From NCBI GenBank assembly GCA_937891825.1, contig CALAHN010000060.1, positions 1-54,505 of the forward strand: a stretch of DNA of 54,505 bases, in the 5' to 3' direction. Source of the stretch: an uncultured Alphaproteobacteria bacterium. Lineage in GTDB: Bacteria > Pseudomonadota > Alphaproteobacteria > Bin95. The notes below the pieces were generated by a model. It saw only the letters and a list, made by a program, of their open reading frames with translations. It ran no database searches and was not told the DNA's origin. The translations under genes and the position numbers were made by a program. This document shows positions 1,214 through 9,754 of the stretch, piece after piece (the stretch's first letter is position 1; every line of letters begins with the position of its first letter).

Positions 1214-1900
1214 CTATTCCGCCGCTCGCTGCAGCAAGGTCGCCGCATAGGTCTCGCGCCGGATCAGGTTGCCCTCGAACTCCGCCGGAAACACGTCCGC
1301 GACAGAGCCTTCGACGATCTCCGTCGCCAGAAGCGCCTCCGTCCAGGCCTTCACCTTCGGATAGCCGTCGATCAGGCCGGTCTTCAGGAGCGCGTCCGCC
1401 ATCAGGAAGCGTTGCAGGAAAGGCGTGTAGGCGCAATCGACCAGGCAAAGCCGGTCGCCGCCAAAGAACGGGCCGCCTGGCGCCTTGTCAGCCGCGAGCG
1501 CGCCTTCCAGCGTTTCAAGCGCGTCCCTGGCGTCTTCATGCGCCGCATCGGAGTCTGCCTTGGTCTTGGCGTAGTAGACCGCCGAGAGGCTGCTTGCGAA
1601 GTCAGGCGTAAAGTCGGTCCAGGCCCGGTGGCGGGCGCGGACAAGCGGATCTTCCGGGTGCAGGCGGGGCGCGATCGTCTCGTCCAGATATTCCGCGATT
1701 GCATTGCTTTCGAACAATGGCTGATCGTCGACCAGCAGCACGGGCACCTTGCCGTGCGGCGAGATCTTCATGAACCAGTCCGGGCGGTCGCGGAGGTTGA
1801 TATAGGTGGTCTCGAACGTGACCGACTTGGCGCGAAGGGCAATCACGGCCCTTTGCACCCAGGGTCAGGTGTAGGCGCTGATGAGATGCAGCTTGGGCAT
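1214..1900 (-). CDS. Glutathione S-transferase, putative selenoprotein (in-frame UGA at catalytic Cys)
   Basis: 228-residue GST with an N-terminal thioredoxin fold (PDWFMKISPHGKVPVLLVDD and the GSH-binding ESNAIAEYLDE) and an all-helical C-terminal domain. I start at the ATG at 1900, which has AGGGAGA six bases upstream. From there the frame reads MPKLHLISAYT, then TGA at 1865-1867, then PWVQRAVIALRAKS. Omega/beta-like GSTs have a catalytic Cys (C-P-[WFY]-x-Q-R) at exactly this place. A conventional annotation would begin at the GTG at 1858 and lose the first strand and active site. The frame is otherwise open to the end, which argues against a decayed gene. A strong stem-loop directly follows the UGA (see 1829-1859). 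I infer Sec at residue 12, using glutathione for conjugation, thiol transfer or reduction. The alternative is a recent nonsense mutation or sequencing error. The gene is monocistronic. Confidence 0.85.
1829..1859 (-). promoter_or_regulatory. Candidate bacterial SECIS hairpin in the GST mRNA
   Basis: Starting six bases after the UGA, GGUGC pairs with GCGCC (one G-U). After one A-C mismatch, AAGGGC pairs perfectly with GCCCUU, leaving a seven-base loop CGUGAUU. The loop begins at +18 from the UGA and has G as its second base. The published bacterial SECIS consensus is a small hairpin 16-37 nt after the UGA with a G in the first two loop bases, so this fits. The structure is seen directly; SelB binding is inferred. 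Confidence 0.65.
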
Positions 1901-7460: not shown

Positions 7461-8750
7461 TTAGCGGCGCAGACGTCCCATGACCCAATGGGCGAGCGCG
7501 GTCAGGCCAATGCCTGTCCGGATCTCGAATTCCTCAAAGTGGAAGCGCTTTGCCGGAACGCCGGCCGCCCTGAAGTCGTGGGCGAGTTGGCGGCGCATCG
7601 AAACGGGGCCGCAGAAGAAGATTTCGGCGTCCCGAAGCGGCGCCGCGACAGTTTCGGCGATGCGCGCGGCGGTGAGGCGTCCATCTCGCTCGGACGCGAT
7701 CACATGCAGGCGAAAATTCGGGAATGCCGCGTCGGCGGCTTCGAGGCTGGGCAGGAGCGCCGCGTCATCCAGGGAGCGCACGCTATAGAACATATCGACA
7801 GGACGATCTGGCGCGCTCATCGCCGCCGTCCAGGCGGCAAACGGCGTGACGCCGATGCCGCTCGCGATCCAGATCTCGCTCCGCGCCCGCTTCGGTCGTC
7901 GGAAGCGGCCAAACGGGCCGGACACGCGGGCTGTCATCCCAGGCCGCAGGACCGAGGCTAGGCGCGCCGTGTAATCGCCAAGGGCCTTGACGGTGATGCG
8001 GAGGGCGCCGTCAGCGTCCGGGGCGTTGCTCAGTGTGAAGGGGTGAACTTCGCCAAGGTCGCGCGCCTGGAAGCGGACGAAGGCAAACTGCCCCGGCGCC
8101 GCCCGTAAGCCGAGCCCGATCGGCTTGAGCGTGATCGCCACGGCGCCGCCGGTCCGATCGATTGCTTCAACAATATAAGGTTTTGCGCCCCTTAGCTTGG
8201 CGTGAAAGATCAAGGAATACAGGTAGGCGGCGAACCCCAGAATGCAGAATGCCATAATGTAGGCGCCCAAGGGATCGCTAAGGGAAAAAGGCTTCAGGAT
8301 CAGCGCGTAATGGATTGCGGCTAATGTGAAAAATATGCCGATGAACTGATGGGTCCAGCGCCATAGGTGATAGGGGATGAAGGTCGCGACCGTCAGCGCG
8401 ACGAGGATCAGAATGCCATACAGGCTGATCTCGCCGATCTCGTTCAGGGTCGTCGCCCGCTCCAGTTCGTCCATGTCCGCGTCGATCGTGTCGTGCAGCA
8501 TCACGGCGGCGACCGCTGTGATGGCTAGGTGCTTGTGCAGGACGTAAATCCGATCGAGCCCGCCGAATATAGCCTCAAGCCATCGCAGGCGCGTTGCGAG
8601 GAGCTGCGTGACGGCCATCAGGATCAACGCCTCGGCGCCAAGGAACTGGCTGAAAGCGGCGATCGGGTCCTGCTTCAGGGCGATGGCGAAGAACCAGGGA
8701 ACCGGAATGGCCAGCAGGACCGCGATCAGAATAAGGCCTTGAAGGCGCAT
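7461..8750 (-). CDS. Ferric reductase-like membrane flavohaem oxidoreductase
   Basis: 429 residues. The N-terminal half has about six transmembrane helices of the ferric-reductase type, with paired histidines on two helices (LHKHLAITAVAAVMLHD and WTHQFIGIFFTLAAIHY) for b haems. The C-terminal half is a ferredoxin-NADP reductase module. It shows the FAD site HPFTLSNAP, the nucleotide loop GIGVTPFAAW and the C-terminal FFCGPVSM. Such proteins pass electrons from NAD(P)H across the membrane to iron, oxygen or other acceptors. It begins 30 nt after the selenocysteine glutaredoxin-DinB gene on the same strand, so the two probably share a transcript. Confidence 0.88.
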   Translation of the reverse strand: MRLQGLILIAVLLAIPVPWFFAIALKQDPIAAFSQFLGAEALILMAVTQLLATRLRWLEAIFGGLDRIYVLHKHLAITAVAAVMLHDTIDADMDELERATTLNEIGEISLYGILILVALTVATFIPYHLWRWTHQFIGIFFTLAAIHYALILKPFSLSDPLGAYIMAFCILGFAAYLYSLIFHAKLRGAKPYIVEAIDRTGGAVAITLKPIGLGLRAAPGQFAFVRFQARDLGEVHPFTLSNAPDADGALRITVKALGDYTARLASVLRPGMTARVSGPFGRFRRPKRARSEIWIASGIGVTPFAAWTAAMSAPDRPVDMFYSVRSLDDAALLPSLEAADAAFPNFRLHVIASERDGRLTAARIAETVAAPLRDAEIFFCGPVSMRRQLAHDFRAAGVPAKRFHFEEFEIRTGIGLTALAHWVMGRLRR

Positions 8751-8780: not shown

Positions 8781-9542
8781 TCAAGCGTCCCAGACCGGGC
8801 CCGGCAGCGGCAGGTCGGCCAGAAGGTCGGCTGTCAGCGGTCGGTCGACGGTCTGGCCTTCACGCTCCAGCAACGACATGATCTGGCGGACATGTTGCGT
8901 TGAATGCCAGACGGTTCTTTCAATAACTTCATGGACGGGTTGAGCGCCATAATAGGTTTTCATCTCGCCCTGCCCAAGCGTGTCGCCTTCCGCCGCCGCC
9001 CAGGCCGCGAAGCGCGCACGGACGGAGTCGCCGAAGGCGGCGATGTCGGCGCTGGTCAGCACGTCGTCCGGCGGCGGCGCCACCAGGGCCTCATAGGTCA
9101 GGCCCTGGGTCGATTGGCGCGCTTCCAGGAACGCCAGCGGAATCTGGAAGATATGGTGCATCAGCACCCGGTAGCTGCGGGGCCGGTTCGGCAATTCCTT
9201 CGCAAGGGCGGCTTCAGGCATTTGGGCGCAGTATTGGCTTGCGGCCTGCCAGATCGCATCGCCGCGGGCCACGAGGGCCGCGGGCGAAAGCGTCGGGCTG
9301 ACATCCTCGTTGAGGTCGAGGAAGGCGACGACGTCCTTGATCAACTGCGCGAAGACGAACTTGCCGTCCCGCGCGACGACCGGCACCGAACGCGCGCCAA
9401 GCGCGCGCAGCGCGTCCAGGCCGCCCTCATCCTCAAGCACATTCACAGATTTGAACGCAATCCCACGGACCGCGAGGTATTCTTTTACCCTAAGACAGCT
9501 TGTTCAATGGGGCTGCCAGAAGACCGAAATTTCGCCAGACAT
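8781..9542 (-). CDS. Glutaredoxin-DinB fusion, putative selenoprotein (UxxC)
   Basis: 253 residues. The ATG at 9542 has GGAGGG six bases upstream and reads MSGEISVFWQPH, then TGA at 9504-9506, then TSCLRVKEYLAVRGIAF. The TGA is at the first Cys of the glutaredoxin C-x-x-C, giving U-T-S-C at residues 13-16. The frame continues through VNVLEDEGG and SVPVVARDGKFVFAQ (the cis-Pro region of a glutaredoxin). It then enters a DinB/DUF664 four-helix domain from about residue 85, with histidines in VLMHHIFQ and VWHSTQHVRQIM that could bind metal. Standard gene calling would start at the GTG at 9446 and miss half of the first domain. DinB proteins include metal-dependent thiol-S-transferases for bacillithiol or mycothiol, so a seleno-thiol transferase or reductase role is reasonable but inferred. 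Confidence 0.85.
9459..9481 (-). promoter_or_regulatory. Candidate SECIS-like hairpin in the glutaredoxin-DinB mRNA
   Basis: AAUACCUCG can pair with CGUGGGAUU, with two single mismatches, around loop CGGUC. The loop begins 32 nt after the UGA and its second base is G, as in the bacterial SECIS consensus. A competing hairpin nearer the UGA (GGGUA with UACCU, loop AAAGAA, 9475-9490) is also possible but lacks G at the start of its loop. The choice between them is unsure. Confidence 0.4.
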
Positions 9543-9754
9543 GTTTGTCCCTCCACAAAAAAAAGCTTATCCGGCATTGTCGGCGGCGTCGATCATTTCC
9601 GCAACATCGGCGCGGAAATCTTTTGCGGGGGTTGGCCGCGCGAAGGGCCAGGCGCGGCTTGTCGTGCGGCGCGAAGCCGGTAAGGTCGAAAGCAGGCGTT
9701 GGGTGACGGCGCAGGCGACCGGGCCGGAGCGCGATTGACAGGGGGTAGATCACG
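9543..9754. other. Divergent intergenic region, no gene seen
   Basis: About 210 bases between the start of the glutaredoxin-DinB gene and the divergent lyase gene. It must hold promoters for both. Short open frames exist on both strands but none has a ribosome-binding site or a recognisable motif. Confidence 0.4.

Follow-up and report, generated by a model that had tools for sequence, protein, structure and literature searches.

A predicted selenocysteine-containing glutaredoxin-DinB fusion represents an apparently undescribed protein family in proteobacteria

Glutaredoxins with a UxxC motif are listed in the 2026 review table of prokaryotic selenoprotein families (PMC13188914). These selenocysteine (Sec) glutaredoxins (PF00462) share with the gene described here a thioredoxin fold and a UGA-decoded Sec at the first position of the motif. 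The Uxx-star family (NF041212) likewise has a glutaredoxin-like N-terminus, and some of its members contain Sec. Proteins of the DinB/YfiT (STL) superfamily, including BstA, YfiT, mycothiol S-transferase and DR0053, are four-helix bundles with conserved His residues for a metal, and the bundle and the conserved His residues are again shared with the product of our gene; to our knowledge, these four proteins have neither a glutaredoxin domain nor Sec. The DinB enzymes BstA, YfiT and mycothiol transferase bind metal through His residues and move bacillithiol or mycothiol to electrophiles (PMC10950700), and a title cited in the same paper names a glutathione branch of these enzymes. Formate dehydrogenase has been named as the primary role of Sec in proteobacteria (PMC8124441).

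We analyzed a stretch of 54,505 nucleotides (the window) from an uncultured alphaproteobacterium, and focused on a gene on its minus strand, grxU-dinB. Its frame reads MSGEISVFWQPH-UGA-TSCLRVKEYL and then stays open to a UGA stop at 8783-8781. It contains exactly one internal UGA, at the first Cys codon of the glutaredoxin CxxC motif (UTSC). In this region the table-11 ORF list holds 8781-9446 only; standard gene calling takes the UGA as a stop, and is therefore likely to overlook grxU-dinB or to annotate it as a shortened DinB ORF. The features of the window are as follows.

8781-9542, minus strand: grxU-dinB, predicted Grx-DinB fusion of 253 residues, with Sec as residue 13
9549-9554, minus strand: GGAGGG, Shine-Dalgarno-like, six bases 5' of the ATG at 9542-9540 (from the sequence)
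9504-9506, minus strand: in-frame UGA, codon 13, the U of UTSC; of 60 homologues, 45 have UGA and the other 15 a Cys codon here
9456-9474, minus strand: SECIS-type hairpin CGCGGUCC-GUG-GGAUUGCG with a CGUG tip, bases 33-51 when the U of the UGA is taken as base 1
9354-9527, minus strand: glutaredoxin domain, residues 6-63 (U13, C16 and the cis-Pro position P54)
8880-9257, minus strand: DinB four-helix-bundle domain, residues 96-221, with invariant H130, H213 and H217
1214-1900, minus strand: GST-like selenoprotein gene, the second of the window, with its UGA at 1867-1865 and a hairpin, GGGC-CGUGAUU-GCCC, just downstream

The preliminary description of this DNA had read the gene from a well-placed ATG at 9542, with the UGA on the redox-active Cys of a UxxC site and the frame running unbroken through a DinB domain. 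Re-reading the frame from the sequence reproduced its coordinates and reading exactly: the Shine-Dalgarno-like GGAGGG precedes the start, and no further stop occurs before 8783-8781. Every homologue read has UGA or a Cys codon at this position, including further UGA and Cys forms beyond the 60 compared below. A ferric-reductase-like membrane flavoprotein gene (7461-8750, minus strand) begins, in the same orientation, 30 bases past the stop of grxU-dinB and is a possible operon partner, although the pairing was not seen conserved in relatives.

Both halves of the protein were recognized by profile and structure comparisons. With the UGA read as Cys, Pfam Glutaredoxin PF00462 matched at E 3.5e-11 (43.6 bits against a cut-off of 22.9), and it matched all 30 family members examined. 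DinB_2 scored 21.7 bits in the window protein (E 3e-4), just under its cut-off of 24.8, and matched 27 of the 30 members at E <= 0.01 (best 1.4e-9). An AlphaFold2 model of the window protein (mean pLDDT 94, pTM 0.89) consists of a glutaredoxin fold and a DinB four-helix bundle; the former matches BC3987 (3zit) with a TM score of 0.9 by target length, and the latter matches DR0053 (6iz2; TM 0.80) as well as YfiT (1rxq). A search by sequence found no solved chain spanning both domains. Across the 30 sequences, down to 35% identity, U/C13, C16, P54, H130, E208, R209, W212, H213, Q216, H217, R219 and Q220 are invariant, as is the motif ERxxWHxxQHxRQ around H213 and H217.

We then compared the UGA codon among relatives. 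Within the order, 14 genomes were searched, the window's included, and each has grxU-dinB with exactly one UGA, at the same codon and within UTSC; the other copies have 52-71% protein identity to the window protein. The UGA is therefore not a chance occurrence. An alignment with Cys-containing homologues, proposed as a check in the preliminary description, was made with 60 Grx-DinB genes obtained by scanning a public genome collection, comprising alpha-, beta- and gammaproteobacterial assemblies and a few labelled otherwise. The position is UGA in 45 of them and UGC or UGU in the remaining 15, so that Cys is the conserved counterpart. Among 385 evenly drawn alphaproteobacteria, the gene was present in 32 genomes; 19 of its copies contain the UGA and 14 are uninterrupted. 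Downstream of the UGA, dN was 0.010-0.086 against a dS of 0.27-0.61 in the three least diverged of the pairs measured; as judged from these sequences, the codons 3' of the UGA are under strong purifying selection. Cys forms also occur on plasmids of cultured relatives (Caballeronia, Variovorax, Roseomonas and Rhizobium). On a Roseomonas marmotae plasmid (L128:4315-8388), the Cys form lies between an isochorismatase-family gene and AtzG-like/amidase genes and close to a gene of the Asp/Glu racemase family; these neighbors hint at a catabolic role for it there.

A fold test of the sequence after the UGA, also proposed earlier, predicted the SECIS-type hairpin listed above (MFE -10.1 kcal/mol, z -2.8 in the window gene). 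Its CGUG tip is invariant in 31 diverse sequences of UGA forms belonging to this alphaproteobacterial hairpin class. In the UGA forms, 94.9% of the cells of the 7-pair helix are paired, five of the seven pairs show double changes, and none of 500 shuffles reached the observed covariation score. Kinship alone can lift related sequences above shuffles without any structure, and for this reason two comparisons matter: pairing fell to 33-55% in the UGA forms when the partner was slid by one base, and the same columns in Cys forms were 42.9% paired, indistinguishable from their own shuffles. The codons of the tip are frozen (GTC 25/25, CGT 29/29 and GGG 26/26, against pooled usages of 0.40, 0.25 and 0.29). 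These alignments indicate that the hairpin is evolutionarily supported and specific to UGA forms, the Cys forms tested being without it. A nearer hairpin (bases 17-32) was rejected, as it is absent from the RNAalifold consensus and its Lys-Glu-Phe codons are also found in Cys forms. A second hairpin class, CGAAAG-AGUUU-CUUUCG at bases 20-36, was found mostly in betaproteobacterial assemblies, with frozen CTT and TCG codons; two loci (L091 and L093) retain the AGUU tip on a stem altered to CCAAGG/CCUUGG. Both tips contain GU, like that of the E. coli element. In the alphaproteobacterial class, 36-37 bases separate the loop from the UGA, presumably the outer edge of the range for bacterial SECIS elements and thus a point against Sec decoding.

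The preliminary description had further suggested looking for selABCD. The genome of the window (G000; 99.97% complete) encodes a tRNA-Sec with a UCA anticodon (71.5 bits against a cut-off of 47), together with SelA (512 bits), SelB (424 bits) and SelD (276 bits), all above curated cut-offs; selA and selB adjoin on contig 43. Neither of the two outcomes named in the preliminary description as refuting its reading, a genome lacking Sec-insertion machinery or homologues with an unconserved Cys, was therefore observed. The SelD match (L018; G000:C104:19770-20648) lies inside an open frame of 765 residues, and SelD may therefore carry a further, fused domain. Despite this complete Sec machinery, a profile search with TIGR01553 found no selenocysteine formate dehydrogenase in this genome. 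Formate dehydrogenase was accordingly rejected as its main selenoprotein: no match exceeded the cut-off, and none of the matches listed had an internal UGA.

The presence of SelB followed the form of the gene. SelB scored above its cut-off in 31 of the 35 UGA-form genomes, against 2 of the 15 Cys-form genomes (Fisher p 6e-7); in G049, one of the four UGA-form genomes missed, SelB is split over separate short contigs. Similarly, among the evenly drawn alphaproteobacteria SelB was found in 18 of 19 UGA-form and 3 of 13 Cys-form genomes (p 4e-5), the sole UGA-form miss being a genome only 77% complete. In Filomicrobium sp. MED665 (L061:4001-8196), grxU-dinB, selA and selB are consecutive on one strand, and at five beta-type loci the 5 kb after grxU-dinB contain both a gene for a UGSC-family selenoprotein (UGAC motif) and selA. 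One such UGSC-family gene (L095:5812-7635, minus strand), situated between grxU-dinB and selA, reads AIGA-U-GACTPAVLRA (Pfam UGSC); downstream of its UGA is GCCCG-CCGUGUUG-CGGGC with CGUG in the loop, and homologues of it are present at L088, L089, L094 and L096. Only the selA, selB and UGSC neighbors were carried forward from clustering of neighboring genes, in which many clusters were compositional noise from antisense ORFs; this clustering found no functional partner gene conserved in the lineage of the window.

Taken together, the sequence comparisons make it highly probable (about 0.93) that grxU-dinB encodes a Sec-decoded Grx-DinB protein, its activity left aside; that its UGA is decoded as Sec we hold to be nearly certain. 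A young pseudogene could look much the same, with a single in-frame UGA near its start, and a sequencing error could likewise create such a codon. Yet 45 homologues share this UGA, and they come from many independent assemblies, megabase-length contigs among them, and the strong purifying selection on the downstream codons also opposes a nonsense mutation; because the UGA is conserved, a pseudogene or an artefact is refuted, with a negligible residual chance. UGA is known to be reassigned in some bacteria, and the relatives with Cys at this position would suit its decoding as an ordinary amino acid without selenium, whether by a changed code, by a Cys or Trp tRNA with a UCA anticodon or by plain read-through. 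This is nevertheless very improbable in view of the terminal stop of grxU-dinB and its relatives in genus g2, which is also UGA, leaving a single internal one; of SelA, SelD and tRNA-Sec in the genome; and of the association of the UGA form with SelB and with a UGA-specific hairpin.

The ORF in the table-11 list would instead fit a functional product that consists of only the DinB domain and begins at an internal start, such as the GTG at 9446, with the UGA serving as a true stop or as an attenuator of a short leader. We consider this, too, highly unlikely. The glutaredoxin half is invariant, including I5, V7, F8, W9 and P11, which precede the UGA and are kept across relatives; the Cys relatives encode the whole fusion; and a short leader would have no reason to retain C16 and P54. 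A minor truncated product may accompany the full-length protein.

If grxU-dinB is decoded with Sec as we propose, SelB carrying Sec-tRNA-Sec would bind the hairpin through its GU-bearing loop, by analogy with the E. coli mechanism, and Sec would be inserted instead of termination. The Sec13 selenolate and Cys16 would constitute a UxxC redox centre on the thioredoxin fold, and H130, H213 and H217 of the DinB bundle would, as in the superfamily, bind a divalent metal. The metal might assist transfer to, or reduction of, an electrophile with a low-molecular-weight thiol, probably glutathione; the glutaredoxin half would resolve the mixed selenide or disulfide, with the selenolate either performing the chemistry or resolving the product. 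Such a thiol-dependent transfer or reduction is the most likely activity, by analogy with DinB enzymes, but we put it forward tentatively and at clearly less than even odds. Another possibility is that Sec decoding is real and the DinB half serves for structure or for substrate binding, the enzyme being a glutaredoxin for one protein partner. Sec glutaredoxins with a protein partner are known, one of them adapted to reduce a selenoprotein MsrA according to a reference listed in PMC9312934. The invariance of H130, H213, H217 and ERxxWHxxQHxRQ in sequences as distant as 35% identity argues against a merely structural module and points to an active metal site in the DinB half; we regard the single-partner glutaredoxin as unlikely, if worth keeping in mind.

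A maximum-likelihood tree built from 65 proteins did not group the Sec forms as one clade, and a tree forcing them into a single clade was rejected (AU p = 0.025). This split and the two hairpin designs suggest that the switch from Cys to Sec took place more than once, the number of changes being uncertain on account of long branches. One genome (G366) has both a Sec and a Cys Grx-DinB (L153 and L164; C24:4426-5184 and C25:5256-6005), and the two forms may therefore not be interchangeable. A wider interpretation, which we rate just short of an even chance, is that Grx-DinB forms a new family of selenoproteins, with Sec powering an active site that combines redox chemistry and metal-dependent thiol transfer; that it has Cys ancestry and at least two origins with differently placed SECIS elements; and that, in the lineage of the window, it helps a genome lacking selenocysteine formate dehydrogenase to keep the Sec machinery. 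The family would add to the selenoproteins of many alpha-, beta- and some gammaproteobacterial lineages, in dozens of bacteria. It would also offer a natural experiment, in which one enzyme exists in Sec and Cys forms, both in one genome, and with two SECIS designs, and it bears on what sustains Sec use in proteobacteria.

The preliminary description had alluded to another UGA, most likely that of the GST-like gene at 1900-1214 on the minus strand. This gene reads MPKLHLISAYT-U-PWVQRAVIAL, and its UGA is kept in same-genus relatives and in G009 at 59-77% identity; genus g2 yielded no close homologue. The GST-like selenoprotein shares with grxU-dinB the window, the genus and the CGUG-loop hairpin, but it has a GST fold, and it already appears in published family lists (PMC9312934).

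Other known systems differ from grxU-dinB in different respects. The Cys Grx-DinB proteins, annotated as 'glutaredoxin domain-containing' or 'DinB family', have the same domain order, the same conserved residues and a CxSC motif, but a Cys codon replaces the UGA, the hairpin is absent where tested, and their genomes mostly lack SelB. Against the Uxx-star model NF041212 the window protein scored 28.1 bits, below the cut-off of 66, which places it outside that family. No NCBIfam model claims the full-length protein; the nearest named ones are NrdH and YruB types, all below their cut-offs. The Sec glutaredoxins in published lists have no second domain named, in contrast to the fused DinB domain of grxU-dinB, and DinB occurs nowhere in the main text of either the 2026 review (PMC13188914) or the 2022 review (PMC9312934). 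In the open-licence papers searched, supplementary tables apart, we found nothing relevant that joins Sec or a glutaredoxin with DinB, in keeping with the earlier remark that the fusion had not been functionally described. Since the reviews list UxxC glutaredoxins without DinB and no NCBIfam model covers the whole protein, the chemistry of Grx-DinB is of a known kind, its architecture appears to be new, and the family, though widespread, is apparently undescribed.
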